A DNA stretch of 50,002 nt from Acidisoma sp. L85. GTDB taxonomy: Bacteria > Pseudomonadota > Alphaproteobacteria > Acetobacterales > Acetobacteraceae. The stretch's first letter is position 1. Each line of letters opens with the position of its first letter. The notes beneath the pieces are model-generated. The model saw nothing but the letters and a program-made list of their open reading frames with translations. It was not told where the DNA came from and searched no databases. Positions 21,210 to 50,002 of the stretch are shown here, piece by piece. The translations under genes and the position numbers were made by a program. The stretch spans positions 1-50,002 of the forward strand of contig NZ_LMUQ01000009.1 of NCBI RefSeq assembly GCF_009765865.1, read 5' to 3'.

Positions 21210-21213
21210 GGCC

Positions 21214-22746: not shown

Positions 22747-23749
22747 CGCCCTGCTGCGCGCCCCGTCTCCAAAGGCAATACGGCATCGGGCGTTCGGGCC
22801 GAGCCGGCTGATCGGCTTTCTTGCCAACTCCCGTGAAGTGACTCTGATCGTGCTCATCGCGGCGCTGTCGGTGACGATGACTGTCGTCTATCCAGACAAC
22901 TTTGCCACTTGGTACAACTTTTCGGCCGTGATGCTGAACGCCGCGCAGACCGGAATTCTGGTCACGGGAATGATGCTTCTGATGATCGCCGGAATGTTCG
23001 ATCTTTCCATCGGATCGACCTTGGCCTTCTCGGGCGTCGTCGCGGGCGCCCTCGTCTCGTGGTGGGGTCTGCCGCCCGAGCTGGGTCTTCTGGGGGGGAT
23101 TGTCGCAGGCGCCGCTCTCGGCGCGCTTAACGGCTTCATTGTCACCCGCATTCGCATAAACGCGCTCATCGCGACCTTGGCGACCATGGCAATATACAGG
23201 GGGATTACCCAGCTCCTATCCGGCACAGGGATCACCCCGATCGGAGACGATTTCGCCACCTACGGCCAGTCGGTGTTTCTCGGGCTTCAGACTCCATTTT
23301 GGGTGATGCTTTTCATAGTCATTGCTGGCGGCTGGGCCGTAGCCCGCACGCGCTTTTTCAGGCAGTATTACTTTATCGGGGGCAATGCGCGCGCCGCCCA
23401 GCTATCCGGAATTCGGGTCCAGCGCCTTACCCTCATCGCCTTCGTGATCATGGGAGGTCTCGCCGGGCTGGCCGGAGTCCTGGGCGCCGCCCGGCTGAAC
23501 TCGGCTGTGGTCACGGCCGGGCTGGGGATTGAACTGGCCGTGATCACCGCGACAGTACTTGGCGGCGCCAGCCTCCGCGGGGGTGAGGGATCCGTCCTGG
23601 GAGGCGTCCTCGGCGTGCTTTTCATCGCACTCGTTCAGAATACGCTGATCATCAATGGCATCGGCGTGTTCTGGCAGAATATCATCATAGGCTCAGTACT
23701 GCTTTTGGCAGTCTCGCTGGACCGTTTCAAACAAGTGCATCGCGGATAG
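22739..23749 (+). CDS. Ribose-type sugar ABC transporter permease
   Basis: This 336-residue integral membrane protein has about ten hydrophobic segments and the RbsC-family landmarks MMLLMIAGMFDLSIGSTLAF, ALNGFIVTRIRINALIATLA, TMAIYRGITQLLSG, YFIGGNARAAQLSGIRV and LGGASLRGGEGSVLGGVLGV. It would form the homodimeric channel served by the preceding ATPase. ATG 22739 overlaps the ATPase stop by 8 bases. The longer open frame from 22637 would duplicate ATPase sequence in another frame and is not used. Confidence 0.93.
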   Translation: MVDALLRAPSPKAIRHRAFGPSRLIGFLANSREVTLIVLIAALSVTMTVVYPDNFATWYNFSAVMLNAAQTGILVTGMMLLMIAGMFDLSIGSTLAFSGVVAGALVSWWGLPPELGLLGGIVAGAALGALNGFIVTRIRINALIATLATMAIYRGITQLLSGTGITPIGDDFATYGQSVFLGLQTPFWVMLFIVIAGGWAVARTRFFRQYYFIGGNARAAQLSGIRVQRLTLIAFVIMGGLAGLAGVLGAARLNSAVVTAGLGIELAVITATVLGGASLRGGEGSVLGGVLGVLFIALVQNTLIINGIGVFWQNIIIGSVLLLAVSLDRFKQVHRG

Positions 23750-23780
23750 AACCGCAGAAATCAGGGAAAGAAACATCATC

Positions 23781-24773
23781 ATGGGATCCATCAAAGGATT
23801 AGCGCTCGCGGGAGCTATGCTTGCCGGCTCATTCGCAGCCGCGGAGGCGCAGACGGCTTTCGGGCCGGCCAACGCGAAAGAAACCTATTACTGGATTTCG
23901 CAGAACTCCACCCTCCCGCTTTTCGTGCGCTCCGACTACAGGGGCATGAAGAAGGTGGCTGACCAGCTCGGCGTCAAAATACGGATCGCAGGCCCCACCA
24001 GTATAGACCTGCAACAGTTCATTGCGACCATTGATCAGGTCTGCGCCCAGAAGCCAGCAGGCATCTCGGTGGTCGGGTGGGATCCGGCGCTGACGGCCTC
24101 GGTTAATAAATGCATCGCCATGCATGTGCCGACGGTCGTCGATGATGCAGACCTTCCCAATTCCAAACGCCTCGCCTTCATCGGCACCGATTGGCACACG
24201 ATAGGGGAAGAACAGGCGAAGGCCATCATAAAGGCGCTTCCGAACGGTGGGGAAATCGCTGCGCTTTCCATGGTCAACGCCGATAACATGAAGCAGGCGG
24301 TCTCGGGATTCACCGCAACCCTTAAAGCAGCTGGCCCGAGATATAAGATCGTCGCCTATCAAGATGATGCAGGCGACTCATCCACCGCGGCGAGTGTCGC
24401 GTCTTCGATCATGGCGGCTCATCAGAATATCGCGGCGATGGCCGGGTTCGATTCCGAGTCAGGCCCAGGTATCGTCGAGGCTGTTACCGAAGCCCATAAG
24501 CAGGGCAAGATCGTCGTTACCGCGATGGAGCAGACGCCTGAGTTCTTCAAGACCCTCACCACCGGGTCGACGACCGCGATCATCGTACAGAATCGCGAGC
24601 TTTTCACCTACTATGCGTTCAGGCTCCTCTACGACTTCAACCATAACGGCCTGAGCACGAACGGCCTGACAAGCTGGGAAGGCAAGCCAATCCCGGTGAA
24701 CGTAAACACGGGCGTGCTTGTGGTCACGAAGGACAATGTCGGCCCGATGCTCGCGAATACGCCGAAGTATTGA
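23781..24773 (+). CDS. Periplasmic sugar-binding protein (RbsB/LacI-like fold)
   Basis: This 330-residue protein begins with a Sec signal peptide (MGSIKGLALAGAMLAGSFAA, cleavage after AEA). The mature part has the type-I periplasmic binding fold: YYWISQNSTLPLFVRSDYRG, IDQVCAQKPAGISVVGWDPA, PTVVDDADLPNSKRLAFIGT, AGFDSESGPGIVEAV and a C-terminal LTSWEGKPIPVNVNTGVLVV. It would capture the substrate for the adjacent permease and ATPase. The gene starts 31 bases after the permease stop. The ligand cannot be deduced; the family binds pentoses, hexoses, deoxysugars and cyclitols. Confidence 0.9.
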   Translation: MGSIKGLALAGAMLAGSFAAAEAQTAFGPANAKETYYWISQNSTLPLFVRSDYRGMKKVADQLGVKIRIAGPTSIDLQQFIATIDQVCAQKPAGISVVGWDPALTASVNKCIAMHVPTVVDDADLPNSKRLAFIGTDWHTIGEEQAKAIIKALPNGGEIAALSMVNADNMKQAVSGFTATLKAAGPRYKIVAYQDDAGDSSTAASVASSIMAAHQNIAAMAGFDSESGPGIVEAVTEAHKQGKIVVTAMEQTPEFFKTLTTGSTTAIIVQNRELFTYYAFRLLYDFNHNGLSTNGLTSWEGKPIPVNVNTGVLVVTKDNVGPMLANTPKY

Positions 24774-24860
24774 TGCGAGGCCGGACGCTACCCGCTCGTT
24801 GATAGCAGGCGGCGTCCTTTCCTTTTCCGGCATGCCACATGCCCAACCGTGGAAATTTCC

Positions 24861-25670
24861 ATGCCTCTCTCCGACAAAACCAGCATCCGCTTTTTCGGCG
24901 TAGCGGCTTATGAGATCATCAACAGGCTTGGGCAGCGCATTCTGCTCGATCCGTTCATGAGCGAGAATCCCGCTTGCCCCGTTGCTTTTGACAGTTTCGA
25001 TCATGTCGACCTCGTAGTGGTTAGTCATGCTGCGTTCGATCATCTTGGTGATACCGAGGCATTGGCACGTCGTTATGGTTGCCCGGTGATCTGCGGCGGA
25101 GAGGTCAAAGCTTATCTGGTCGCCAAAGGTATCGACGCGGAGACGATCCGCGCCACGACCTGGGGCATCCGCGTCGAGGTAGCAGGCATCGAGGTGCAAC
25201 CGGTTGAGTGCCATCACTGGTCACAGATCAAGATGCCGGATGGAACATTCGCCTCAGGCGTGCCGATGGCCTTCATCGTTTATGCTGACGAAGGCGTCCG
25301 GTTCTACCACTACGGTGACACCGCCATATTTTCCGATCTCAAGCTTCAGGCTGAGCTTTATCAGCCCACGATCGGCTGCATCGGCATCGCCAATCCCCAA
25401 GAAATATTGCATCGCAATCCTATGCCGGGCCGGATGGTGACAGCCGAAATGTCGCCCTATGAGGGCGCTCTCGCAGCCCAATGGCTCGGCTTGGAAACCG
25501 TTCTGCCCTGCCACTATTGCAACCCAATGGATCCTGAAGTCGCAGAATTCGAGAAGCATTTAAAGGCGCTGGAAGCCAAGCGAATGCCGGTTCCCAGATC
25601 GATCGTGTTGAAGCCGGGCGACTGGATCGAGATCCCGGCCGGCGGCGGCGCTGTCCGCAACGCGGCTTGA
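24861..25670 (+). CDS. Metallo-beta-lactamase fold hydrolase, UlaG-like
   Basis: From ATG 24861 the protein is 269 residues with the MBL alpha/beta/beta/alpha fold: ILLDPFMSENPACP, VVSHAAFDHLGD, VECHHWSQ, FYHYGDTAIFSDL and VLPCHYCNP. The first metal motif is H56-x-A58-x-D60-H61, where most MBL enzymes have H-x-H-x-D-H, so one zinc ligand is replaced by alanine. The other ligands (H118 or H119, D153, H218) are present. UlaG-type enzymes open lactones of sugar acids, so a lactonase role in this operon is plausible. A GTG at 24849 is an alternative start. The dehydrogenase gene begins 8 bases after the stop. Confidence 0.8.
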   Translation: MPLSDKTSIRFFGVAAYEIINRLGQRILLDPFMSENPACPVAFDSFDHVDLVVVSHAAFDHLGDTEALARRYGCPVICGGEVKAYLVAKGIDAETIRATTWGIRVEVAGIEVQPVECHHWSQIKMPDGTFASGVPMAFIVYADEGVRFYHYGDTAIFSDLKLQAELYQPTIGCIGIANPQEILHRNPMPGRMVTAEMSPYEGALAAQWLGLETVLPCHYCNPMDPEVAEFEKHLKALEAKRMPVPRSIVLKPGDWIEIPAGGGAVRNAA

Positions 25671-25678
25671 TGTAGACG

Positions 25679-26698
25679 ATGGAAGCCGCTGTCTTTGACG
25701 CGCCATTCGCTCTGAGGCTCGAGGAACGGCCCACGCCGCTCCCGACGCGGGGAGAAGTCCAGGTCGCCGTCGATGCTGCTGGACTGTGCGCCGGTGACCT
25801 CTACATCTATCTCGGTAAGAATCCCTATGTGAGTTACCCGCGGATAGGCGGCCATGAGATTGCGGGCCGCGTTTCGGCTCTCGGCCCTGACACGATTGGG
25901 CCGGCGCTAGGCACCCCGGTGGTGGTGGAACCTTTCATCGGCTGTGGGCATTGCTTTCCCTGCAGGGTCCAGAAGCCGAACTGCTGTGCCAATCTCCAAA
26001 TCATTGGTGTGCATAGGGAAGGTGGCTTCGCGGAAAGCGTAACTGCTCCGGTCGACAGACTTCACGTCATTCCGGATGGGATGACGCCTTTTCTGGCAAG
26101 TTTCGTCGAACCCGTGGCGATCGGGGTGCAGGCCTGCCGGCGCGGGGAGGTAACGGCCGTGGATACGGTCCTGATCCTCGGAGCTGGGCCGATCGGCCTT
26201 GCCATCGCTGAGGTGGCACTCGCGCGAGGCGCTAAGGTCTATATTGCAGATATCGCGCGGGATCGTCTGGACATTGCGGCACAGCTTGGTGCGGTTCCGC
26301 TCGAGGCTGGTGGCGGCCTTCCGCAGGAGGTGATGCGTTTGACCGGCGGGGAGGGTATGCCCGTTGTCATCGAAGCGACTGGCAATGTGAAAGCGATGGA
26401 GCAGACGGCCGGTCTCGTCGCCGCGGGCGGCCGGATCGTGGTGGTGGGTCTTGTCGGGCAGGGCGTGCCGGTATCCTGGCCCGGCCTCGATCTGACGCGC
26501 AAGGAGATGACGATCCTCGGATCGCGTGCAAGTACTGGGTGCTTCCCGGAAAGTCTTGATCTCCTAGCAAGAGGCGCCATCCGATATCCGGATATCGCGA
26601 CCGGCTTTCGCCTGAGCGAGGCGCCTTCGGTCTTCGCGGATCTCGCACAAAACACATCCGCCTTGCACAAGGCTGTCTTTCTGAAAGAACTCGGATGA
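25679..26698 (+). CDS. Zinc-dependent medium-chain alcohol/sugar dehydrogenase
   Basis: The 339-residue protein is a medium-chain dehydrogenase. Catalytic zinc ligands are C37 (GLCAGD), H59 and E60 (GGHEIAGRV). Structural-zinc cysteines are C89, C92, C95 and C103 in GCGHCFPCRVQKPNCC. The NAD-binding fingerprint is LILGAGPIGLAIAEVALARG. Relatives include RspB, threonine dehydrogenase and L-galactonate/L-gulonate or sorbitol dehydrogenases. It probably oxidises a secondary hydroxyl of the sugar or sugar acid in this pathway using NAD. It overlaps the next gene by 4 bases (ATGA). Confidence 0.9.
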   Translation: MEAAVFDAPFALRLEERPTPLPTRGEVQVAVDAAGLCAGDLYIYLGKNPYVSYPRIGGHEIAGRVSALGPDTIGPALGTPVVVEPFIGCGHCFPCRVQKPNCCANLQIIGVHREGGFAESVTAPVDRLHVIPDGMTPFLASFVEPVAIGVQACRRGEVTAVDTVLILGAGPIGLAIAEVALARGAKVYIADIARDRLDIAAQLGAVPLEAGGGLPQEVMRLTGGEGMPVVIEATGNVKAMEQTAGLVAAGGRIVVVGLVGQGVPVSWPGLDLTRKEMTILGSRASTGCFPESLDLLARGAIRYPDIATGFRLSEAPSVFADLAQNTSALHKAVFLKELG

Positions 26699-39084: not shown

Positions 39085-40219
39085 TCACACTCGCGGTTGT
39101 GACCGGAGGGGCAGGGCAACCTCCAGAATCCTTCCCGGTTCGCGATCGCTCGAGCTTTCGGCCTCCAGCGCACCGCATCGTTTCGCCGGGTCGGTTTGGT
39201 GCGCAAAGATTTCGCGGGCGACGTAGCGTTTGAGGCAGCGAATAATCTCGGGCTTGCTCTTTCCCTCCGCCGTGCGGCGTTGCACGTAGTCGACCGTTGG
39301 CTGATGGCCTCGCATGCGCGTCACGACAACCCTGTAGAGTGCCGCGTTAGCCTGTCGGTTACCGCCACGGTTTAATCTGTGCCGTTGGGTCTTCCCGCTG
39401 GATGCGGAGATCGGGCATACTCCGCACAGTTTGGCGAATGCCGCTTCCGAGCGGATACGATCATGGTTATCACCAACGAGAAGGAGCATCTCTGCTGCGG
39501 TGCCGCTCCCGATCCCATGCACCTCGACCAGGTCAGGAGCACGCGCGGGTGAGCGCCTCTAGATGAGCTTGATGGACCTTGATTTCGTCGTCGAGCGCAA
39601 GCCAACGCTGGGCGAGCGCCCGCAGGCCGGCCTTGGCCGAGGCGACAGTCGAGACGATCGGTCCTGGCCGCAAGGCGGCGAGATGTCGGATGAGCATCAT
39701 CTTGCCGCGCAGGAGTTCAAGCCGCTCACGCAAGGCAGACGGGATGCCGACAATCAGGGCCTTGATTGCCAGCATGCTCTGGCTCCGTGCCTTGACCGCG
39801 GTATCACGGGCCACCTTGAGATGGCGGATCATCTCCACCGTGCTCGTGCCCGATTTAGGAAGACCGGTCGCCTGGCCGCCGAGGACCGCCCGAGCGGCCG
39901 CCTCGGCATCGATCGGATCACTCTTACCCCTCTGATGTCGCAGTTGCCGGTCGGAACGGTTGACCTCGATCACGGTATGTTCCTGCACGCGCAGGAACCG
40001 CGCGAGGGCCGCTCCGTACGATCCAGTGCCCTCGATGCCGAAGGCCCTGATGTTGCCGAACGAGCAGGCCCAAGCCGCGAGATCCCGATAGCCTTTTGCG
40101 TTTGTTGGAATGGTGATGGTGCCCAGGCGCATGCCGAGTGGGCTGACCGCCGCGGCAACATGGATGTGCTTATGAGTATCGACGCCGACGACAACCTCGG
40201 CAGCAGCAGTCTGGTTCAT
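39085..40219 (-). pseudogene. IS110-family transposase, frameshifted
   Basis: From ATG 40219 the N-terminal RuvC-like DEDD domain is clear: GVDTHKHIHVAAAV with D14, IEGTGSYG with E63, KSDPIDAEAAARA with D101 and D104. The first frame ends at 39533. The C-terminal Tnp domain resumes in another frame with LVEVHGIGSGTAAEMLLLVG, CGVCPISASSGKTQRHRLNR (catalytic serine region) and GGNRQANAALYRVVV, ending at 39085. One frame change near 39535 separates them, so the recombinase is inactive as written. IS110 elements insert without terminal repeats using a bridge RNA from the non-coding end. Confidence 0.85.
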
Positions 40220-40440
40220 GGCAGGAGACTCCGAGTGGGTTGCGGAGCCTGACGGTCGAACGAGCGGACAGGACTGTGATGGGACCAAAGCTTCAAGCTC
40301 CTATGAGGTCACGTCTCGCCCGACCGACAGGCGCTGTCTGGAAGACCGACAAATCATCCCTAAGACACGAGGTCAGTCTCATTCAGGGTCAGGCAAACCA
40401 GGCAGCCCATACAAACTCACAGTCTCATTCAACTGTGTAG
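40220..40440 (-). ncRNA. Putative IS110 left non-coding end (bridge-RNA region)
   Basis: In IS110-group elements the bridge RNA that guides target and donor choice is encoded in the non-coding end upstream of the transposase. The 221 bases upstream of ATG 40219 have no convincing ORF and show repeated motifs (GTCTCATTCA-type segments at about 40375-40386 and 40421-40431). Exact ends and fold were not determined. The assignment is by position relative to the transposase only. Confidence 0.35.
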
Positions 40441-40742: not shown

Positions 40743-41618
40743 TCAGGTGATATCAAGGAAATAGCGATCTACCTCGGTCATCCGCTCAAAGAGAGCGCGA
40801 GTTAAGTAGGCGCGCTGATTGAGCTGCTGCGGCATATCGCGTCGCGTGTGGCTCAGGTGCAGCTGCCGCCTTCGAGCACTGGAGTTTTTGGTGGTGCCGC
40901 TGTGCCACATATGCGCATTGCAAACGACCACGGAGCGTGCGGGCACGGTGACTTTTATCTCGCCTTGATAGGGCGCAAAAGGATCCGCTGGCATTTTATC
41001 CGCATCGCCAGTCACCGGTGAGACCGCGCTGTGTGCGGTGACATCGGCCCCCTCAGTTGCCCATTTATGCGGTGCGGTTCGTGGCGCGGCGCCCATCCCC
41101 ATCGCGTTCTCGCCTGGTACGTTCAGGGGTGCCCATTTATGTGATCCAGGGACAATGCGAGTCGGTCCATTCTCAAGCGTCATCGGGTCGAACGTGATCA
41201 GAGAGTTCACCAGACACCACCGACCGTCTGGAAGCTTTACCGAATCAGAATGCAGAGGTTGACGTCCGTACCCAGTGTGGGGCTCACGCATGTTTGCCCC
41301 ATGAACCTTGAAATCTCCGAGCAGGTAGTATGCCGCTGCTAGCATGGGCTTGATATTTAGCAGGCTATCAAAGGCGTCAGTTTTGTTGAACACGTTGGAG
41401 ATGCGGGTTGCGCCACTCTCGAGGCTCACTTCACTTCCGGCCAGATCGCCTTCTTCAGCAACGATTCGGTCTACTTCTGCAGCCATACGTTGACATTCGT
41501 TCTCGGAGAACGCTTCCTTGATCACGAAATAACCGTCGCGATCAAGACATTCGCGTTGCTCCTTTGTGATGCTCTCAGCCGTAACGCCTAGCTGTTGAAG
41601 GGCCTCGAGAGAGTTCAT
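40743..41618 (-). CDS. PhyH (phytanoyl-CoA dioxygenase) family Fe(II)/2-oxoglutarate dioxygenase
   Basis: The 291-residue protein has the double-stranded beta-helix of PhyH enzymes. Iron ligands are visible as H-S-D in RQPLHSDSVKLPDGRW and the distal histidine in CNAHMWHSGTTKNSS; the downstream R-R-R-Q-L-H may supply the 2-oxoglutarate-binding arginine. NGPTRIVPGSHKW is a typical family motif. Enzymes of this class hydroxylate or oxidatively demethylate substrates. It is the last gene of the minus-strand sugar operon, 62 bases after the ATPase stop. A role in removing an O- or N-methyl group from a cyclitol-like substrate is inference. Confidence 0.88.
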   Translation of the reverse strand: MNSLEALQQLGVTAESITKEQRECLDRDGYFVIKEAFSENECQRMAAEVDRIVAEEGDLAGSEVSLESGATRISNVFNKTDAFDSLLNIKPMLAAAYYLLGDFKVHGANMREPHTGYGRQPLHSDSVKLPDGRWCLVNSLITFDPMTLENGPTRIVPGSHKWAPLNVPGENAMGMGAAPRTAPHKWATEGADVTAHSAVSPVTGDADKMPADPFAPYQGEIKVTVPARSVVVCNAHMWHSGTTKNSSARRRQLHLSHTRRDMPQQLNQRAYLTRALFERMTEVDRYFLDIT

Positions 41619-41680
41619 CTATACCTCCATTATGGCAGTGCTCGGTGGCATTCGTGGTGACTGTTATCCGCTGTCTGTCG

Positions 41681-42454
41681 TTACGGACTTCGCGCCGTCT
41701 TACCCATGATCATGGATATGATTTCATGCTCGTTAGTGTCCGCGGTCAACACCTCGGCCGCCTTCCGCCCACGATGCAGCACTACGATGCGATCCGTCAC
41801 CTCGACGACATCAAGGATATTATGGGTGATATAGATCACTGCGACCCCGTCCGAGGCAAGTTGACGTGCTAAAGCCAGCACCTTCTTTTGCTCCGGGACA
41901 CTGAGAGCAGCGGTTGGCTCATCCATGATGACGAGGTTGGCCTTCCAATGCGTTGCTCGGGCAATTGCGACAGCCTGCTTCTGGCCCCCGGACAACTCGT
42001 CGACCGCAACCTTGACTGACGGTATATGAATGTCCAGCTTTTTTAGCGTCTCTATGACTTCCTTCTCCATTTTGTGCCGTTGAAGAAGGCCCAGCAACCC
42101 ATTCCTCGATAGCATAGTCATCTCGCGGCCTAGGAAGAAGTTTGAGGCAACACTGAGATTGGGTATGAGTGCCAGATCCTGGAATACAGTCTCGATGCCA
42201 AACCCTCTTGCGATTTCGGGAGAGGATAGAAAGACCTCTTTTCCATTGCATCGAACGGACCCAGCGCTTGCCACGACGACACCAGCGATAGTCTTTATCA
42301 ATGTTGACTTGCCGGCGCCATTGTCGCCAAGCAGCCCTAGAACTTGTCCACGATGAATATCCAGATCGACGTCCATCAACGCTTGCACCGCGCCGTAATG
42401 CTTTGAAACGCCGCGGAGCTCAAGAAATGGCGTGGTCGCTAGGCGCGAGCTCAT
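41681..42454 (-). CDS. Sugar ABC transporter ATPase (single domain, FrcA-like)
   Basis: The 257-residue protein carries Walker A GDNGAGKS, the Q-loop region VFQDLALIPNLSVASNFFLG, signature LSGGQKQAVAIARA and Walker B LVIMDEPTAALSV, then an H-loop ITHNILDVVEV. It has one ABC domain, as in FrcA-type systems, rather than the tandem form at 21214. It works with the permease and binding protein further upstream. The start overlaps the isomerase stop by 4 bases. Confidence 0.92.
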   Translation of the reverse strand: MSSRLATTPFLELRGVSKHYGAVQALMDVDLDIHRGQVLGLLGDNGAGKSTLIKTIAGVVVASAGSVRCNGKEVFLSSPEIARGFGIETVFQDLALIPNLSVASNFFLGREMTMLSRNGLLGLLQRHKMEKEVIETLKKLDIHIPSVKVAVDELSGGQKQAVAIARATHWKANLVIMDEPTAALSVPEQKKVLALARQLASDGVAVIYITHNILDVVEVTDRIVVLHRGRKAAEVLTADTNEHEIISMIMGKTARSP

Positions 42455-43284
42455 TTTGAAACCCAGCGACCCAGTCTTTCGAGATACTCTCGACTTGCCT
42501 TCAGAATCTCTTGCTCATCGTCGGTGTAACCAAAAACATTTGCTTCATACTCGACCGATATTGTTCCTTTATATCCCTTCTCCACCAGTTGACTAAGGAG
42601 CGCGTCAAAATTGATCACACCATCGCCAAGTGGCGGAAACATAAAATCAGGATAGCGGCCGGCGCCGTCCTTGAGATGCACATGAACGATTGTTGACGAC
42701 AGACGTTCGACCAGATCCGCAGGCGTCTCCCCTTGCACGACGAGGTGGCTTGGATCGAAGTTTACTTTGAAGGGCACATCGGGGAGATCGTGCGCGAGGC
42801 GTTCATAGTCTGATATCCTGTGAAATAGGTGGCCAGCGATTGCTTCGATTGCAAGAGCCACTCCCACTGCCTGCGCGTGCCGCACTGTTTCAGCGACCGC
42901 TTCTCGAAACCAGCGCCAGGCCTCCTCCGGATCGGCGCCCTGAGGAAGAGCCCCGGATAAGATATGGGACACTGGAGCGCCCACGTCAGCCGCCAGGTCA
43001 GTGCAGCCGTTGACATAAGCTATCGCGCCTTGGCGTGTGGACCTGCCCACCTCCACCATCGGGATGTGCGCCGATATCGCACTAATCGAGAGACCCGCGG
43101 CGGCGCAGCGGTGGCGTATTCCCTTCCGTCGCTCAGCATCCAATTCGGGCGTTACATGCGGCTCTGCCCACGGGAGGGTCTCCGCGTTAAGTTCTATTGC
43201 CCCGAAGCCTGCCGCTGCAACGAGGTCGATAGCCTGTTCGACGGAACGGTTGTGCAAAGCGACGCTGTGGAAGCCCATGATCAT
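42451..43284 (-). CDS. Sugar phosphate isomerase/epimerase-like TIM barrel (IolE/IolI/MocC-like)
   Basis: The 277-residue protein is an AP-endonuclease-2/xylose-isomerase-like TIM barrel. Metal-binding residues are seen in LAIEAIAGHLFHR, KVNFDPSHLVVQG, VHVHLKDG and SVEYEANVFG, the standard E-D-H-E set. Relatives include IolE (inosose dehydratase), IolI, IolH and rhizobial MocC. With a Gfo/Idh/MocA dehydrogenase just upstream, it probably dehydrates or isomerises the keto product. It overlaps the ATPase start (ATGA). Confidence 0.9.
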   Translation of the reverse strand: MIMGFHSVALHNRSVEQAIDLVAAAGFGAIELNAETLPWAEPHVTPELDAERRKGIRHRCAAAGLSISAISAHIPMVEVGRSTRQGAIAYVNGCTDLAADVGAPVSHILSGALPQGADPEEAWRWFREAVAETVRHAQAVGVALAIEAIAGHLFHRISDYERLAHDLPDVPFKVNFDPSHLVVQGETPADLVERLSSTIVHVHLKDGAGRYPDFMFPPLGDGVINFDALLSQLVEKGYKGTISVEYEANVFGYTDDEQEILKASREYLERLGRWVSK

Positions 43285-43296
43285 TTTGTTCGCTCG

Positions 43297-44430
43297 TCAA
43301 TAGGAAGGAACGACAAAAGCTGCATCCCTTGGGAGAGGCAACTCGACCCAGCAGCCATCACGCACGGACAGATATGATGCCTGCACCACTTCCTGCGCTT
43401 TGAGGCCGTCGAAGCCGGTCACTAGCGCGGGCAGGCCATTTCTAATGCTACTACAGAATGCAGCTAGCTGCGCCAAGTATGGACTGCGGCGTGGAGGTTT
43501 AACGCTGATCCAACCCCCGTCGAATTCCTTCCACCAGGCATCGGGATAGTGGGCCTCCCGCAATACCTCAGGAAGGTCCGATGCCTTGCTTTCAGTATAG
43601 ATGGCAAGCGGAACAGCTTGGAATGGGTTTAAGGTCTCGGTTGCAATGTGGATTGTGCCCCTTTCCCCGTAGAGGGTGGTTCCATCGGCAATAGCCGGCG
43701 AGTAGCGGTTCGACGTAAGCACGCCCCGCGCGCCACTGGCGAACCGGGTCAACACGTGTACGTTGTCATCAACCCGTTGTGGCAAGACGTGGTGACTCAG
43801 ATCGGCGAAGACCGCGGTCATTTCGCCCACGAGATGCCGCAACAGATCGATCCGGTGAATCGTCAAATCGATGATGGTGGCGCCCCCTGAGCGAGCGAGA
43901 TCGTAGCGGTAGGTCGTCGCTGCAGGATAAGCGGTCCATTTCTCCCCATAGTTCGAATGCGCGGCGTGTATAGGACCGATCACGCCCGCGTCGATCACTG
44001 CCTTCGCGATCTGAACCTGCGACCAAAAGCGTTGGTTAAAGCCGACCTGCAGGAGGACGCCGGCCGTCTCGCAGGCGTCGATCATCCTTCTCGCACCGGC
44101 AACGTCCAGAGAAAGAGGCTTCTCGCAAAATACGTGCTTTCCTGCGGCGGCGGCCGCTACGACCGCCGCCTCGTGCAAGTTGTTGGGCGATGCGACGATG
44201 ACGGCGTCGATGTCACTAGCGAGAAGCGTTTCTAGTTTGGTGGTGTGAAGCGCGGCGCCAAACTCTCCCGCTAATGCTTCCGCACGAGCGCCATCCGGAT
44301 CGAAGACTCCTGAGAGTCTTGCATCAGGCGACTTACTCACCGTGGGTCCGTGTGACAGGCGCATAATCGCCCCGGCACCCACAAGGCCAATGCGTACGGG
44401 GCGTTGCTCTGGTTCGGCCATCATTTGCAT
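43297..44430 (-). CDS. Gfo/Idh/MocA family oxidoreductase
   Basis: The 377-residue protein has an N-terminal NAD(P) Rossmann domain (VRIGLVGAGAIMRLSHGPTV) and the family motif KHVFCEKPLSLDVAGARRMI, whose E-K-P contains the catalytic lysine. The C-terminal domain has GGATIIDLTIHRIDLLRHLV with the conserved D-x-x-x-H. Family members include inositol dehydrogenase IolG and rhizopine MocA. It probably oxidises a hydroxyl of the transported sugar or cyclitol. ATG 44430 is used; ATGs at 44424 and 44421 are equally possible. The permease stop lies 6 bases upstream. Confidence 0.92.
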   Translation of the reverse strand: MQMMAEPEQRPVRIGLVGAGAIMRLSHGPTVSKSPDARLSGVFDPDGARAEALAGEFGAALHTTKLETLLASDIDAVIVASPNNLHEAAVVAAAAAGKHVFCEKPLSLDVAGARRMIDACETAGVLLQVGFNQRFWSQVQIAKAVIDAGVIGPIHAAHSNYGEKWTAYPAATTYRYDLARSGGATIIDLTIHRIDLLRHLVGEMTAVFADLSHHVLPQRVDDNVHVLTRFASGARGVLTSNRYSPAIADGTTLYGERGTIHIATETLNPFQAVPLAIYTESKASDLPEVLREAHYPDAWWKEFDGGWISVKPPRRSPYLAQLAAFCSSIRNGLPALVTGFDGLKAQEVVQASYLSVRDGCWVELPLPRDAAFVVPSY

Positions 44431-44436
44431 CCGTTT

Positions 44437-45420
44437 CTACTTGATGACGCGCAGCTTGTCGCGCTGGATGGACAGGAGAACGGCAACAACAAGCACGACG
44501 CCAGTTAGGACGGTCTGTACGTTCGTTGAGATGCCGAGGATAATCATGCCGTTGGCTAGAATACTAATGACGAGGCTGCCGACGATCGTGCCGAGGATCG
44601 AGCCCATTCCACCTGTGAGGGGAGTTCCGCCGATGACCACCGCTGATATAGCAAGTAGTTCGAAGCCGATACCCGATGTGGGACTTCCCGAGCCAAGCTG
44701 CGACGTGAGGACGCCCCCACCGAGACCCGCCATCAGACCGGAGAGCATAAAAATCAGTATTTTTAGCTTCTTTACCGGGAGACCCAGAACTCTCGCTCTG
44801 TCTTCGGCGCCGCCGATAGCAAGCGCGTATTCGCCGAATCGAGTCTGTGTGAGGATGGCGCCAAACATAAGCGCAAAAACGATTACGATAATGAACGGGA
44901 TCGGGGGAGTTCCGACACTGTAGAATGAGCTATCGAGAGGTATTGCAACTGGGGCGCCCCCTGTGACGATCACGGTTAGTCCTCGTGCCACGGAAAGCAT
45001 GCCAAGCGTCGCAACGAAAGAGGGGATTTTTCCGAAGACGAACATCGCGCCGTTTGCTAGACCAAACAAGGCGCCAACGGTCGGCGCTATCAAAAACGCG
45101 AGCCATCCCAAAGACGGCGTGGCCATGGCAGCAATTACGCCTGACACCGCCATGACTGATCCGACCGAGAGGTCGATACTGCCAACAATGATCACGAAGG
45201 TCATGCCTACGGAAACAAGACAAAGCACAGCGCTATTCTGTAAAATCGTGCTGAGATTGCCCCATGAGAGAAATAGGCCGGGGGCAAGGGCGCCGAAAAT
45301 GATGACCAGTGCAACGAGGGCAATGTAGGCAATATATCGTCCGGCTAGCTCGTTCAAAGAACGACGCCGCGCCCGTGGTTGCCGATGTGTGGTTACTGAC
45401 AGGATCGTCTCCAATTCCAC
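44437..45420 (-). CDS. Ribose-type sugar ABC transporter permease
   Basis: The 327-residue protein has about ten membrane helices. RbsC-family landmarks: SVGMTFVIIVGSIDLSVGSV, ALFGLANGAMFVFGKIPSFV, ATLGMLSVARGLTVIV, YALAIGGAEDRARVLG and IGGTPLTGGMGSILGTIVG. It forms the channel used with the ATPase at 41681 and the binding protein at 45489. A GC-rich hairpin lies between the binding-protein stop and this start. Confidence 0.93.
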   Translation of the reverse strand: MELETILSVTTHRQPRARRRSLNELAGRYIAYIALVALVIIFGALAPGLFLSWGNLSTILQNSAVLCLVSVGMTFVIIVGSIDLSVGSVMAVSGVIAAMATPSLGWLAFLIAPTVGALFGLANGAMFVFGKIPSFVATLGMLSVARGLTVIVTGGAPVAIPLDSSFYSVGTPPIPFIIVIVFALMFGAILTQTRFGEYALAIGGAEDRARVLGLPVKKLKILIFMLSGLMAGLGGGVLTSQLGSGSPTSGIGFELLAISAVVIGGTPLTGGMGSILGTIVGSLVISILANGMIILGISTNVQTVLTGVVLVVAVLLSIQRDKLRVIK

Positions 45421-45447
45421 AAGCGGAGTGCTTTCGCCGTGGCGAGC

Positions 45448-45476
45448 AGCACCGGGCCTTTGCAGGCCTCGGTGCT
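45448..45476 (-). promoter_or_regulatory. Intercistronic hairpin between binding-protein and permease genes
   Basis: AGCACCGGGCCT and AGGCCTCGGTGCT pair over 12 base pairs with a single bulged base and a 4-base loop. No U-tract follows on the minus strand. Hairpins at this position are common in ABC operons and protect the upstream binding-protein message, so more binding protein than permease is made. That function is inferred from position. Confidence 0.6.
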
Positions 45477-45488
45477 GGCCAGCCTCAA

Positions 45489-46550
45489 CTACTTCACCTG
45501 GAGTGGGAACACCTGTGACTTTGTCGCTGGGTTATTGGTGATAGTGTAGTCTTTCACGTTGAAGGGGGGCGGGTTATCAATATACTCATGCTTGAATTGC
45601 TGGAAGTTTTTTGAATCGACTCCCAAAAGCGGAAGTCGAATATCGGTCTGCAGCGGCTGATGTCCATGCAACTTATCGTAGGCGATCATCACCCCGAAGC
45701 CGAGCTGCAGCCAATGTCCACCTGTCGAGAAAATGAAGTTTGTGTGTTTATCGATTAGATCGAGGGCCTGCGGGGTAAGATCCATACCACCGAGGAGAAC
45801 CTGCTTGCTGCGTCCCGATTGTCTGACTGCGTTGAACGCTCCGATGCATAGTGCGTCATTGTAGCACCAGACGCCGTCAATTGTGCCGGCAGGATGAGCT
45901 GAGAGAAAATTCTCCATCGTCTGATAGCCGTTCGTCTCCGTCTCACCCGCCCCGACGTACTGGACAAGCTTGACATTACTATTCGCGGCGATGGCCTCCA
46001 TAAGGCCTTTCTGCCGGCCTTCCGCAACTGAGGACCCAGGAGTGCCACCAATGGCCACAAGCTTGGTCGCACCGTGATTGATCAGAAACGTTGCAATGCT
46101 ATCACCGGCTCGCACGTCATCCGGCCCAATAAAAGCAACGTAAGGCGCCTGTTGATTGGTTGCGGGGAATCCTGGGTAACGATCAACTACAACAATCGGC
46201 TTGCCGGCTCGATCCGCAAGTCGGATGAGTCCGGGAGCGCTCGCCGTCGACTGCGGCGTCACAACAAGAGCATCAACACCTCGAGAGAGCAGAGATTGGA
46301 CATCGTTTAGTTGCTTTTGTTCCTGATTCGCGGCCCCGACCACAATTAGATTGATCCCCAGATCGCTTGCGGCGTGCTTTGCAAAGTCGACAGCGCGAAC
46401 CCAAAAAGGATTGTCAAGCGTGGGGATCGAGACGCCGATCGTCTCCGTGGCCGCGCTGGCGGCCGACGCGGCAGTAGTAGCGGTGAGAGCCAGCATTGCT
46501 AGCCCAACCACGGTCCTCCGTACGAACGCTCTCCGAGCAGAGCATCTCAT
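45489..46550 (-). CDS. Periplasmic sugar-binding protein (type-I, RbsB/MocB-like)
   Basis: From ATG 46550 the protein is 353 residues. It begins with a Sec signal peptide (MRCSARRAFVRRTVVGLAML, cleavage in the ASAASAATE region). The mature part shows TIGVSIPTLDNPFWVRAVDF, VVGAANQEQKQLNDVQSLLS, IVVVDRYPGFPATNQQAPYV and DGVWCYNDALCIGAFNAVRQ, the ribose/galactose-binding fold. GGGGAG lies about 10 bases upstream, which is why I prefer this start to 46595. It is the first gene of the minus-strand operon, divergent from the IclR regulator. Confidence 0.9.
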   Translation of the reverse strand: MRCSARRAFVRRTVVGLAMLALTATTAASAASAATETIGVSIPTLDNPFWVRAVDFAKHAASDLGINLIVVGAANQEQKQLNDVQSLLSRGVDALVVTPQSTASAPGLIRLADRAGKPIVVVDRYPGFPATNQQAPYVAFIGPDDVRAGDSIATFLINHGATKLVAIGGTPGSSVAEGRQKGLMEAIAANSNVKLVQYVGAGETETNGYQTMENFLSAHPAGTIDGVWCYNDALCIGAFNAVRQSGRSKQVLLGGMDLTPQALDLIDKHTNFIFSTGGHWLQLGFGVMIAYDKLHGHQPLQTDIRLPLLGVDSKNFQQFKHEYIDNPPPFNVKDYTITNNPATKSQVFPLQVK

Positions 46551-46750
46551 ATTTGTCGCGCTCCCCTGAAGTGCGGTCATTGACGCGCCGCACATATGTT
46601 AACGCCGAGTTTCTCCGGCTGAGAAAAAGTGGCATCACAGACAACTGCTGTCAACACTGTTGCGGAGCAGGCGACGGGCATGGGTCCAACGCTCGAAATT
46701 CTCCGTTCTATGGTGAGATCTGCAGATTAGTGGCCTATGGTGGCTGAGGA
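46551..46750. promoter_or_regulatory. Divergent promoter region with candidate IclR operators
   Basis: The 200 bases between the binding-protein and iclR starts hold a perfect 11-bp palindrome CAACACTGTTG (46652-46662), overlapping a minus-strand TTGACA (46654-46649). They also hold a direct repeat CTATGGTG at 46708-46715 and 46735-46742. The palindrome overlapping a likely -35 box for the catabolic operon suits regulator binding. No good -10 box was identified on either strand. Confidence 0.45.
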
Positions 46751-47626
46751 GTGACGTCTTACATCACTGTGCGCAACGCTGTTGACCGGACTTTGTCTGG
46801 CGGTCTAAGGTTGGTAGCGAGAACAGTTGTGAGGGAGCGCACGTCGTTGGAGATACAGTCTGTCCAGAAAGCGCTGAGATTGCTGGATCTGATCGCGGAG
46901 CGGCGGGAGCCGCAGGGTGTTTCGGAGCTCGCCAGACTAGCGGATTTGGACAAGAGCTCCGTTTCACGTCTGCTGCGGACCTTAGAGGGCGCACAGCTTG
47001 TAGCCCAGAATGAGAGCACTCGCGCCTATAGTCTTGGACTGCGCCTGGTCCATCTTGGCCAGCGAACACTACAGCGCCTGGATTTTCGCGACATATCCCG
47101 AGCCGGCCTGAGACGGTTGGCGCATGCGACTGGCGAATGCGCTCATGCTGCAGTACTAGCCGGAGAGCGGGCCCTCTACATATCACAAGAGACGCCGGGT
47201 GTCGGAGTGGTGGTCGACGCCCCCGTCGGATCCCTTGCTCCACTGCATTGCACTGCCTTAGGCAAGGTTCTCGTGGCCGGGCAGTCTGCGACGAAGCGAG
47301 AGGCGCTCATCGAGAAGATGCAATTTGAGCGCCATACTCGGAGGACCATTGGCGATCCGGAGCAATTGCGCCGAAGCGTAGAGCGCATCCGGATCGACAA
47401 CATTGCCTACGATGACGAGGAATTCAGTGTTGGTGTACGCTGCGTGGCCGCACCTGTTTGGGGTAGCGAAGGTGTGCTCGTCGGAGCGATTGGCATTTCT
47501 GGTCCCAGCCCCCGGGTCACCGATGAAAGGATAACCCTTTGGGAGCCGCTTCTTCGTCACGAGGCGGAGACGCTTTCCAAAGATCTCGGATGGGAACCCG
47601 ACCTTGGGACGCAGGGTCTGGAATAG
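46751..47626 (+). CDS. IclR-family transcriptional regulator
   Basis: The product is up to 291 residues. The winged helix is at about 35-90: EIQSVQKALRLLDLIAERRE, PQGVSELARLADLDKSSVSR, LLRTLEGAQLVAQNE. The effector domain has the IclR signature around LHCTALGKVLVAGQS and VRCVAAPVWGSEGVLVGAIG. The GTG start at 46751 immediately follows GAGGA, too close for ideal spacing, so an internal GTG near 46829 may be used instead. It is divergent from the transport/catabolic operon and followed by the ThDP enzyme gene, and likely controls both. Confidence 0.88.
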   Translation: MTSYITVRNAVDRTLSGGLRLVARTVVRERTSLEIQSVQKALRLLDLIAERREPQGVSELARLADLDKSSVSRLLRTLEGAQLVAQNESTRAYSLGLRLVHLGQRTLQRLDFRDISRAGLRRLAHATGECAHAAVLAGERALYISQETPGVGVVVDAPVGSLAPLHCTALGKVLVAGQSATKREALIEKMQFERHTRRTIGDPEQLRRSVERIRIDNIAYDDEEFSVGVRCVAAPVWGSEGVLVGAIGISGPSPRVTDERITLWEPLLRHEAETLSKDLGWEPDLGTQGLE

Positions 47627-47727
47627 CCTTCGGAGCGGAGAAAGTGACGGGCCGGGCGGCACAGCGGTCCCGTCAGACACTAGATGCCGCCGTGCCTGAT
47701 CGGCAGCAAGTCAGAGAGAACGTCAGT

Positions 47728-49608
47728 ATGGGCCACGAGGAAGAGGTTAGACAGCGCGCGCGCGCAATCGCGTCAAGCGGCGGAATTGTGCCGGCGCTCG
47801 AAGCCGGGACCTTGCCTGCGGAAGTCAGCGTATCCGTGTCCGAAGGAATAGTCCTTGGACTACTTCGGCAAGATGTCCGGAAGTATTTCGTCATCCTTGG
47901 TCACGGAAATACGTCGCTCGGCGAGATTCTCCGCATCTATGCGGAAGAGAAGGTGGTCCGAGTATATCAATGCCGAAATGAAGTCGCAATGGCCCATGCG
48001 GCGACCGCCTTGCGCTGGATCTTTGGCGAATCATCAGTCGTCGTTGCGTCGATAGGGCCGGGCGCCCTGCAAGCTCTAGCTGGATCACTCGCCTGCGCCT
48101 CGAACGGGATCGGCGTGTATCATATCTACGGAGATGAAACGACACACGGTGAAGGATACAATATGCAGCAAGTGCCAAAGCGCCAGCAAAACGCTTTTGC
48201 ACGCATGGCAGATATCCTCGGCGAGGCCTACACGCTACATACACCCGGGTCGCTTCGCGACATGCTGCGACGCGGCACGCTTTGCGTCCATCGGTCCGTT
48301 GGCGCCGGCCCTTTCTACATGCTTCTCCCTATAAATGTGCAGCCGAAGATCATCGCCGGACTCAATCTTGCGGCGTTGCCATCAAGGTTTCAGCCAACGC
48401 CTGCCGCTCCGGTGTCACTGACGGATTATGATCGCGCGTGCGAGCTCATCGAATCACATGACAAAATCGTTATCAAAGCGGGGGGAGGCACGCGCAACTT
48501 TCCACTAGAGCTACGTGCTCTTGCCGCTGCGACGGGGGGCGTCGTCGTGTTGAGTCCGGGTTCGCTGGGGGTCATTGCTAATGATGATCCCGCAAATATG
48601 CATGTCGGCGGATCGAAAGGAACAATCAGTGGCAACTTTGCAATGGAAAATGCCAGCCTTGCGATCATCGTAGGATCAAGGGCAGTCTGCCAGGCCGATT
48701 GTTCCGGCACGGGGTATCTAAACGCGGGAGCGGTGTTGAACATCAATGCTGAAACTTCTGATGCAAACCATTACAACAAGACAGTTGCTCTAACTGGTGA
48801 TATCGGCGCGGTCCTTCGCAAGTTGCTCCTTCGGCTGGATGAGCGCGGTTTGGTTGACTTGAAGGCTTCGACAAACTGGCGTGCTCAATGTACCCTTCAA
48901 AAGGAGCATTGGTCTGAACTGCTTCGCGAGCGTACAGCAACAGTCCCCGTGAGGGACCCTGCTTTCAACACGGCAACGTTGACGCAACCGGCCGCCATTC
49001 GGATCGCGGCCGAATTCGCGAAATCTGTCGGTGCCGTTAAGATCTTTGACGCAGGCGATGTCCAGGCCAACGGCTTTCAGATTGTCCGAGATGAGGAACC
49101 GAGCGAAACTATCACCGAGAGCGGCTCGTCCTATATGGGGTTTGCGGTGTCCTCCCTACTCGCTGGCGCGGTAGCGGATCGCAGCCGCTACATGATTGCG
49201 TTTACCGGAGACGGCTCTTTCCTGATGAATCCGCAGATTCTTGTTGACGGCATCGTCCATGGTGCGCATGCCATGATTGTTCTCTTCGACAATCGCCGCA
49301 TGGCCGCGATTTCTGGCCTCCAGATCGCCCAATACGGGCGGGACTTCGCAACGAACGATGACGTGCAGATAGACTTCGTTCGGTTCGCCACATCATTCCC
49401 TGGAGTACACGCCATAGCAGCGGGAGCGTCGGAACAGAGCTTAAATTCGGCTCTCGCCAGCGCCTATGAACATGACGGGCTAAGTGTGGTCCATGTCCCT
49501 GTCTATTGGGGCGAAGAAGAGAAAAATAGCCTCGGGGCCTACGGACGGTGGAACGTTGGACCGTGGGTCGAAGACGTTGAAGAGCTATACAGAGCACAAG
49601 TTCTATAA
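47728..49608 (+). CDS. ThDP-dependent enzyme, IolD-like (trihydroxycyclohexanedione hydrolase family)
   Basis: From ATG 47728 the protein is 626 residues, the size of IolD. The N-terminal PYR domain has FVILGHGNTSLGEILRIYAE and QCRNEVAMAHAATALRW, with the activating glutamate at about residue 85. A central domain has KIVIKAGGGTRNF. The C-terminal PP domain has the ThDP/Mg motif GDGSFLMNPQILVDGIVHG followed by D-N after about 27 residues. IolD opens the ring of 3D-trihydroxycyclohexane-1,2-dione in myo-inositol catabolism. This homologue beside a MocA-like dehydrogenase and IolE-like isomerase suggests ring cleavage of a related cyclitol. A GTG at 47644 is an alternative start with GGAG upstream. 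Confidence 0.88.
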   Translation: MGHEEEVRQRARAIASSGGIVPALEAGTLPAEVSVSVSEGIVLGLLRQDVRKYFVILGHGNTSLGEILRIYAEEKVVRVYQCRNEVAMAHAATALRWIFGESSVVVASIGPGALQALAGSLACASNGIGVYHIYGDETTHGEGYNMQQVPKRQQNAFARMADILGEAYTLHTPGSLRDMLRRGTLCVHRSVGAGPFYMLLPINVQPKIIAGLNLAALPSRFQPTPAAPVSLTDYDRACELIESHDKIVIKAGGGTRNFPLELRALAAATGGVVVLSPGSLGVIANDDPANMHVGGSKGTISGNFAMENASLAIIVGSRAVCQADCSGTGYLNAGAVLNINAETSDANHYNKTVALTGDIGAVLRKLLLRLDERGLVDLKASTNWRAQCTLQKEHWSELLRERTATVPVRDPAFNTATLTQPAAIRIAAEFAKSVGAVKIFDAGDVQANGFQIVRDEEPSETITESGSSYMGFAVSSLLAGAVADRSRYMIAFTGDGSFLMNPQILVDGIVHGAHAMIVLFDNRRMAAISGLQIAQYGRDFATNDDVQIDFVRFATSFPGVHAIAAGASEQSLNSALASAYEHDGLSVVHVPVYWGEEEKNSLGAYGRWNVGPWVEDVEELYRAQVL

Positions 49609-49699
49609 CCCAAGAGTAAGAAGCAGGACAAACGCTCACAGCGCGCCCTTCGCTCAATCAAGACGCGCTCAAGCACGACTAGCGTAGGGGACCAAGGAC

Positions 49700-50002
49700 A
49701 TGGCCGACGACGCCAAGCCGCGGGGATTGCGCCGCGGTCTCACCAACTACGGCGATTTCGGCTTCAGCGGGTATCTGCGGCGGTCTTTCGCAAGTTCCAT
49801 GGGCTACAGCCGGGAGATGCTGGAGCGGCCGATCGTCGGCATCTGCCACTCCGAGAGCGGCTTCAACAACTGCCACCGCGCAATGCCGGAACTCGTCGAA
49901 GCCGTAAAGCGTGGCGTTCTGGCGGCGGGGGCGCTGCCGATCGAATTTCCCACGGTTTCTCTCGGCGAGGTCTTCCTGGTGCCGACCAGCCTGAAGTTTC
50001 GG
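49700..50002 (+). CDS. IlvD/Edd family dehydratase, 5' part (runs off the window)
   Basis: The first 101 residues read MADDAKPRGLRRGLTNYGDF, then GYLRRSFASSMGYSREMLER, PIVGICHSESGFNNCHRAMP and EFPTVSLGEVFLVPTS. This is the N-terminus of Fe-S dehydratases such as dihydroxy-acid, L-arabinonate, D-xylonate and gluconate dehydratases; the cysteine in G-I-C-H and N-N-C-H are candidate cluster ligands. AAGGAC precedes ATG 49700. It follows the ThDP enzyme by 91 bases on the same strand, so it may belong to the same pathway. The sugar-acid dehydratase subgroup fits the context better than valine/isoleucine synthesis. Confidence 0.88.
   Translation, partial: MADDAKPRGLRRGLTNYGDFGFSGYLRRSFASSMGYSREMLERPIVGICHSESGFNNCHRAMPELVEAVKRGVLAAGALPIEFPTVSLGEVFLVPTSLKFR

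Follow-up and report, generated by a model that had tools for sequence, protein, structure and literature searches.

The catabolic locus at the contig end

We analysed a stretch of 50,002 nucleotides from Acidisoma sp. L85 (contig NZ_LMUQ01000009.1; hereafter the window), in which positions 40743-50002 carry six genes on the minus strand and, divergent from them on the plus strand, a unit comprising an IclR-family regulator, a thiamine diphosphate (ThDP) enzyme and the start of an IlvD-type dehydratase. The original prediction had listed an importer, Gfo/Idh/MocA dehydrogenase, TIM barrel and PhyH operon divergent from IclR, ThDP and IlvD/Edd genes, and every one of these was found, the dehydratase for its first 101 codons only. 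Pfam places all eight complete proteins over their family cut-offs, and no locus protein exceeds any NCBIfam cut-off among the matches listed. In literature from which subscription papers were mostly absent, we recognised no paper describing this gene set, in agreement with the earlier statement that no described pathway has exactly this combination. The locus is real and coherent, undescribed within the literature searched, and can be classed as one form of the pathway type to which IolD belongs; its substrate and reactions we infer below. Its genes are as follows.

46595-45489, minus strand: periplasmic sugar-binding protein, RbsB-like (PF13407, 152 bits)
45420-44437, minus strand: ABC importer permease of the ribose (CUT2) type (PF02653, 136 bits)
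44430-43297, minus strand: Gfo/Idh/MocA dehydrogenase, IolG-related but below the IolG cut-off (IolG model, 165.9 bits)
43284-42451, minus strand: AP_endonuc_2 xylose-isomerase-like TIM barrel (PF01261, 134.5 bits)
42454-41681, minus strand: ABC importer ATPase, RbsA/YtfR-like, with a single ABC domain (PF00005)
41618-40743, minus strand: PhyH-family Fe(II)/2-oxoglutarate dioxygenase, the final gene on this strand (PF05721, 70.6 bits)
46751-47626, plus strand: IclR-family regulator, divergent from the preceding genes (PF01614, 136.5 bits; PF09339, 54.2 bits)
47728-49608, plus strand: ThDP enzyme of an IolD-sister family, start ATG at 47728 (PF02775, PF00205, PF02776)
49700-50002, plus strand: IlvD/Edd-type sugar-acid dehydratase, first 101 codons, truncated by the contig end

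From the binding protein onward, the minus-strand genes lie 68, 6 and 12 bp apart, the next pair overlaps by 4 bp, and the PhyH gene follows after 62 bp; with these spacings the six genes likely form one operon. The contig (C26) stops at position 50002, so that the dehydratase is visible for 101 codons only. Over its last 318 bp the window shares 95% DNA identity with a second IlvD gene, located on contig C59 (L185, 9769-11475), and this near-identical copy may have broken the assembly at that point; no match to the ThDP enzyme or to an aldehyde dehydrogenase (ALDH) was found in the 19.9 kb around the second gene.

A ThDP enzyme related to IolD

As judged from its sequence, the ThDP enzyme is related to IolD and is not itself a member of IolD. 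The IolD model TIGR04377 gives the window protein 146.8 bits against a cut-off of 715, and it ranks first among NCBIfam models for each of the three members of the family that were scanned, the others being those of HIMB114 (158.6 bits) and Salipiger (168.8 bits). A tree of 25 ThDP proteins separates 12 rows of the family from 6 of IolD by a branch with 100/100 support, the window enzyme being outside the IolD clade, and the two groups join each other at 100/99, apart from IlvG, five ThDP paralogues of the host and a haloarchaeal ThDP enzyme. Removing five long rows leaves this join at 100/98. Moreover, approximately unbiased (AU) tests reject trees that place the family with acetolactate synthase (IlvG and host paralogue C2; p 0.001), with the haloarchaeal protein (0.005), with the host paralogue C37 (0.003) or with the host paralogue C75 (0.011). 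The original prediction called this enzyme IolD-like and held that a grouping with acetolactate synthases or sulfoacetaldehyde enzymes would refute its reading of the locus; the tree and the AU tests instead group it with IolD, though outside IolD proper, and we rejected acetolactate synthase as its identity. The sulfoacetaldehyde enzyme Xsc, of which the tree contains no sequence, is represented by its model, which gives the Salipiger family member 80 bits against a cut-off of 676. With caution, we regard the family as the sister of IolD, a join that appears well supported yet, given the long stems, not beyond doubt.

The positions common to the family and IolD comprise GHG, NE(M), GD, QQ, GSM, GDGS and W. 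Residues E86, GDGS495-498 and N523 (numbering starts at the codon before the ATG) are invariant in 34 rows, and we assume that they have their usual roles in ThDP enzymes. The window protein also has the three thiamine pyrophosphate domains, the GDGS...N motif and the candidate catalytic glutamate that characterize the pyruvate oxidase/acetolactate synthase fold. Its AlphaFold2 model has a predicted local distance difference test (pLDDT) score of 85.7, and the best 50 of 480 structural matches include acetolactate synthases, pyruvate oxidases, lyases and glyoxylate carboligase alike. From its relation to IolD, the enzyme is predicted to cleave a C-C bond.

A cluster on a Haloarcula plasmid (L198) contains genes for an IclR regulator, a ThDP enzyme, an alcohol dehydrogenase, glucose 1-dehydrogenase, methylmalonate-semialdehyde dehydrogenase (MMSDH), an aldolase and an enolase-type enzyme. 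We considered this locus as a parallel and did not take it as evidence, because its ThDP enzyme lies outside the group formed by IolD and the family.

Distribution and gene neighbourhoods of the family

Among 99 relatives of the host, four of them congeneric, no orthologue of the ThDP enzyme was found, the best-scoring of the matches listed having 27% identity. When two families were sampled, with the genomes at the centre of each sample included, relatives at E <= 1e-80 turned up in 5 of 398 and 17 of 394 genomes, and the locus looks like an accessory one in its host. Six peptide patterns, run against a single genome for each species, yielded 84 loci as a lower bound, the best 80 of which (50-63% identity) were kept. 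Family members appear in records named as Alpha-, Beta- and Gammaproteobacteria, Pelagibacteraceae and SAR324. In addition, seven plasmid records have a member with more than 50% identity, five of these genes being annotated just as "thiamine pyrophosphate-dependent enzyme" and two records having no gene at that place. The SAR11 relative HIMB114, although its genome is only some 1.2 Mb in size, has 11 open frames in a run from IclR to IlvD.

We assembled 97 neighbourhoods (96 distinct) from the 80 loci of the pattern scan, 3 annotated plasmids and 14 further genomes; since they were picked with the ThDP enzyme as query they are not a random sample, and in some of them the contig ends early. 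Kinds of neighbourhood were assigned by BLAST to reference proteins, a procedure that matches under 33% identity would escape. Kind A, to which the window belongs, has the window-type Gfo protein and TIM barrel (6 of 97 loci, three of them with a ribose-type importer); kind B has a different Gfo protein and often a maltose-type importer (51 of 97); and kind C has any of a zinc-dependent alcohol dehydrogenase (Zn-ADH), a molybdenum hydroxylase and a tripartite tricarboxylate transporter (Tct; 32 of 97). Kind D, a single locus from Salipiger, has a 3-hydroxyisobutyrate dehydrogenase (HIBADH)-like protein, a heme-binding protein, which we take to be GlcG-like, a TIM barrel and a tripartite ATP-independent periplasmic (TRAP) importer. 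One further locus combines features of B and C, and six were assigned to no kind. The kinds follow the ThDP phylogeny, requiring 5 changes where shuffled labels require 31.7 on average, and kind A needs 3; these counts come from a quick tree of the window and 85 of the 97 loci, with the 6 kindless loci and 6 short or duplicate rows excluded. In one locus (L057, 4078-6968) the molybdenum hydroxylase is split in an unusual way, one gene joining the 2Fe-2S domains to the first half of the Mo-binding subunit and another encoding the second half, and Phaeobacter (L128), which has its kind-C operon on a plasmid, has two such molybdenum hydroxylase genes, with PntAB and XdhC downstream.

An IlvD dehydratase and an ALDH of the type of succinate-semialdehyde dehydrogenase (SSADH) or alpha-ketoglutarate-semialdehyde dehydrogenase (KGSADH) both lie near the ThDP gene in 52 of the 97 loci, and just one of the two in a further 12. 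The nearest kind-A relatives of the window locus (L030, from Paraburkholderia, L031 and L034) have both. Over residues 29-127 the dehydratase fragment of the window is 79% identical to the IlvD protein of L030, which exceeds the cut-off of the PRK06131 subfamily and scores 654 bits, below the cut-off of 882, with the L-arabinonate dehydratase model. IlvD rows from 58 loci all keep C59, C127 and C200. The solved structures nearest to the L030 ALDH are 9zh8, named just as an aldehyde dehydrogenase, followed by the KGSADH 5x5t and the SSADH 3jz4. Its residues R161 and R279, which align with arginines of 5x5t, are kept in 58 of 58 rows, drawn from 57 distinct loci other than the window. Arginines of this sort hold the substrate carboxylate in KGSADH and SSADH. 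Their conservation suggests that the product of the ThDP enzyme would be an aldehyde bearing a carboxylate, as is expected from IolD.

A second line of evidence comes from host contig C77, where true IolG, IolE and IolD proteins (396.6, 387 and 814 bits) are encoded beside an SSADH-type ALDH, an HpaI/GarL-like aldolase and MMSDH. The C77 ALDH is 46% identical to that of L030, and because a true IolD adjoins this related enzyme, the arrangement is an independent hint that such an ALDH can oxidise the product of IolD. Neither IolB nor IolC was recognised there in the 16 kb read of the 35-kb contig. The same locus (L171, 17000-33000; 5969-15999) also contains a D-2-hydroxyacid dehydrogenase and a levoglucosan-dehydrogenase-like Gfo protein.

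Elsewhere in the window, an IS110-type transposase frame (39533-40288) lies on the far side of the PhyH gene, and a separate cluster at 20271-26698 has genes for a ketopantoate-reductase-like protein, a tandem ABC ATPase, a binding protein and a Zn-ADH. Megablast searches of the locus and of window positions 14001-38999 against plasmids gave no match.

A proposed route and its alternatives

The Gfo protein scores 165.9 bits with the IolG model TIGR04380 (cut-off 355), and its EKP motif, D188 and H192 are kept in seven of seven rows. For the TIM barrel, the hydroxypyruvate isomerase and L-ribulose-5-phosphate 3-epimerase models outscore the IolE model TIGR04379 (42.9 bits against a cut-off of 290), so that the original label of an IolE/MocC-like isomerase is a weak one. 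Residues of the metal-ligand type in this protein (E147, D177, H203 and E245) are invariant in seven of seven rows, and its model (pLDDT 90.4) is nearest in fold to the epimerase UlaE and the isomerase Art22, with Brucella IolE at rank 10 of the fold matches listed (TM-score 0.68). The protein is presumably an isomerase or epimerase, or a dehydratase, acting on a keto product; because kind-B loci have no TIM barrel, we think an epimerase or isomerase with an adapting role more likely than a dehydratase that the route cannot do without. Trees of the Gfo and TIM-barrel proteins are weak, having long branches and open forks, and in the latter seven rows were chosen simply as the longest open frame at each locus. 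The ATPase has 257 residues and one domain, compared with the 492-513 positions spanned by the best-matching sugar-importer models, and scores 197 bits with YtfR and 186 bits with RbsA, each below the cut-off; the permease reaches 199.9 bits with the ribose permease model (cut-off 398). RbsB is the top NCBIfam model for the binding protein (122.6 bits, cut-off 337). At the positions that we take to contact ribose in RbsB (R141 and F164), the window protein has E192 and G217/E218, as do all three kind-A binding proteins compared. Import of ribose or another common sugar was set aside on the strength of the RbsB score and, as a suggestion only, of these substitutions. The regulator scores 170.9 bits with a BhcR-like model (cut-off 350).

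Our preferred reading, to which we give an even chance, is that the locus represents the kind-A form of a modular catabolic system centred on the IolD-sister ThDP enzyme and runs a six-step route. The ribose-type ABC importer, assigned by homology, would bring in a polyol-like compound, for which a cyclitol, as the plausible leading guess, or something closely related is most likely. The Gfo/Idh/MocA protein would then oxidise one hydroxyl to a ketone, either cyclic or an alpha-hydroxy ketone, which the TIM barrel might epimerise or dehydrate to suit the ThDP enzyme. The latter would cut the C-C bond beside the carbonyl, giving a chain that ends in an aldehyde on one side and in a carboxylate (or a second aldehyde) on the other, an IolD-like cleavage suggested by the sister-group relation and the common catalytic positions. 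The aldehyde could be oxidised to a diacid by an SSADH/KGSADH-type ALDH, the gene for which is adjacent in the nearest relatives and has paralogues elsewhere in the host, and IlvD would dehydrate the resulting polyhydroxy acid, leaving a 2-keto-3-deoxy acid that other aldolases could split. Were 5-deoxyglucuronate the product of the ThDP enzyme, these two steps would lead to 4-hydroxy-2-oxoadipate, which an HpaI-type aldolase could split into pyruvate and malonate semialdehyde without the phosphorylation by IolC. IclR would control the locus, and PhyH may be an optional extra that strips a substituent from a decorated substrate. If this is correct, cyclitol-like rings could be opened and burned by a second path, with a kinase-free branch, and a testable class of carbon sources could be named for small-genome marine bacteria such as HIMB114. 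A bolder form of the proposal, which we hold only as a speculative possibility, is that of a widespread and undescribed non-phosphorylating cyclitol route (IolD-sister, ALDH, IlvD and aldolase) that would open a keto-cyclitol and end in pyruvate and a semialdehyde, with PhyH serving for a decorated cyclitol; its exchangeable importer and dehydrogenase modules would feed in various cyclitols or derivatives in organisms from rhizobia to HIMB114.

Several observations weigh against this proposal. We found no member of the family that has been characterised. The stems on which the ThDP comparison depends are long (3.56 changes per column for the family and 1.58 for IolD), the tree tool flagged such a long-branch join as possibly false, and the AU test is subject to the same long-branch pull of the model. 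The loop YGDETTHGEGYNMQQ of the family is unlike the loop of IolD, and the fold search cannot tell IolD chemistry from that of acetolactate synthase. No ALDH is seen in the window, IlvD lying directly 3' of the ThDP gene, and no IlvD was recognised in the 16 kb read at C77. Across the survey, 33 of the 97 loci have neither ALDH nor IlvD, including 20 in which the sequence runs on for at least 5 kb past the ThDP gene. In kind B, a single dehydrogenase was recognised ahead of the ThDP enzyme, and because there is only this one, an IolD-like 1,2-dione is left unexplained in such loci. Finally, kind C, with its molybdenum hydroxylase and Tct transporter, and kind D, with its HIBADH-type and TRAP genes, are as compatible with an acid as with a cyclitol.

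This last point bears on a different chemistry, in which the ThDP enzyme splits an acyclic 3-keto sugar acid into glyoxylate and a shorter aldose that passes to ALDH and IlvD. The kind-D locus, with a gene like tartronate-semialdehyde reductase or threonate dehydrogenase next to its heme-binding, TIM-barrel and TRAP genes, would fit such a scheme, as would the threonine-dehydrogenase-like alcohol dehydrogenase and tricarboxylate transporter of kind C. Nevertheless, the arginines found in all ALDH rows indicate a carboxylated aldehyde rather than a neutral aldose, the ThDP enzyme groups with the ring-opening IolD, and kind D accounts for 1 of 97 loci, and we regard this route as unlikely.

The original prediction had proposed a methylated or amino cyclitol (rhizopine, pinitol or ononitol) as substrate, with PhyH replacing the demethylating oxygenase; this would be a special case of the cyclitol proposal. 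The PhyH protein exceeds the cut-off of PF05721 (70.6 against 22 bits) and has H123-x-D125 together with H236/H239, which we take to be the usual iron ligands, and the gene stands in the probable operon, 62 bp after the ATPase. The host genome has five PhyH genes; on contig C57 (L027, 7089-10174) TIM barrel, Gfo and PhyH genes lie side by side, a second such association, and on C15 a PhyH gene adjoins a ribose-type ABC importer, so that PhyH may have a role in sugar-like loci. The best PDB matches of the window PhyH include MysH, at the top (37 bits), and EctD (31 bits), which are weak and have been counted in favour of a decorated substrate, and pinitol was the most concentrated compound in one root exudate, according to PMC5789663. 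Against this, no relative of the window PhyH was found in any of the 97 loci within the DNA examined, including the six with window-type Gfo and TIM barrel, which suggests that PhyH was probably added locally to the operon. Relatives at E <= 1e-35 occur in five genomes besides the host, among 385 of its class, with 45-48% identity over the full protein; four of the five, from one genus, adjoin a LacI-type regulator and short-chain dehydrogenase/reductase genes (named by eye), the fifth is in another setting, and none is near a Gfo, TIM-barrel or ThDP gene matching our references. A relative on a Bradyrhizobium plasmid (47.6% identity) adjoins tenA, with insertion sequence elements close by. 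In addition, the binding protein scores 39.4 bits with the rhizopine solute-binding protein model NF052284 (cut-off 420), and the eight locus proteins, to which the search for mocDEF was confined in this genome, contain no mocDEF-type domain and no oxygenase besides PhyH. The rhizopine-like identity thus lacks support, as does the proposed substitution of PhyH for the demethylating oxygenase, and we consider this special case distinctly unlikely. MysH acts on mycosporine-type sunscreens; breakdown of mycosporines was considered as well and rejected, the match being weak and no other support having emerged, including from the literature search.

A route for 3-keto-sugars or anhydrosugars (levoglucosan, glycosides) would use the Gfo protein as a 3-dehydrogenase, the TIM barrel as a hydratase or lyase and the ThDP enzyme on a 3-ketose. 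It draws on the score of the Gfo protein with levoglucosan dehydrogenase, which ranks second among its NCBIfam models (114.8 bits), and on the presence of AtHYD, a 2-hydroxy-3-keto-glucal hydratase, among the folds close to the TIM barrel. That score is, however, far under the cut-off of 650, no second Gfo or glycosidase gene occurs in the locus, and the ThDP enzyme is related to IolD, all of which makes the route improbable. Least probable, in our judgement, is that the locus merely repeats the ordinary pathway for myo-, scyllo- or chiro-inositol, its IolG, IolE and IolD having diverged: models for these first three enzymes of the known pathway all appear among the NCBIfam matches, but with the scores far under cut-off given above, the locus has IlvD and neither IolB nor IolC, true IolD also occurs in 8 of the 15 family-bearing genomes or records searched (one being a plasmid record only), and elsewhere in the host there are true genes for IolD (two, at 923 and 814 bits) and for IolE (three, at 386.6, 386.3 and 379.6 bits), so that an ordinary inositol pathway at this locus is unlikely.

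Comparison with known systems

The proposed cyclitol route shares parts with several described pathways. The non-phosphorylating pentose route uses L-arabinonate dehydratase and KGSADH, to which the IlvD (654 against 882 bits) and ALDH (5x5t) of L030 are near; the window locus differs in having a ThDP enzyme and no recognised pentose dehydrogenase, lactonase or 2-keto-3-deoxypentonate (KDP) dehydratase. The Thermotoga inositol route employs IolM, the model of which (NF041097, cut-off 450) gives the kind-C Zn-ADH a score of only about 200 bits, threonine dehydrogenase giving similar values (203-222). In Azoarcus, the ThDP enzyme cyclohexane-1,2-dione hydrolase opens a ring to a semialdehyde acid that is then oxidised, and it offers a functional analogy to the proposed ThDP step; this enzyme is absent from the PDB matches listed, which in the fold search are the best 50 of 480. 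In rhizopine catabolism MocA is the Gfo-type and MocC the TIM-barrel enzyme, and these two types and a binding protein are common to the moc system and the locus studied here, which in contrast has ThDP and IlvD genes, has no mocDEF among its eight complete proteins and falls short of the rhizopine binding-protein model. The genes of the moc system are named mocCABRDEF in PMC6668481 and PMC5789663. Compared with the canonical inositol cluster, the window has no iolB or iolC among its locus proteins, and the ordinary myo-inositol route passes through inosose dehydratase and 5-deoxyglucuronate, as stated in PMC9007349. The system most closely related is that of IolD, the 3D-(3,5/4)-trihydroxycyclohexane-1,2-dione hydrolase, which would form the sister clade of the family and, like kind A, is accompanied by Gfo and TIM-barrel enzymes; the family is set apart from it by its long stem, by the loop YGDETTHGEGYNMQQ and by the ALDH and IlvD genes that accompany it in more than half of the loci.

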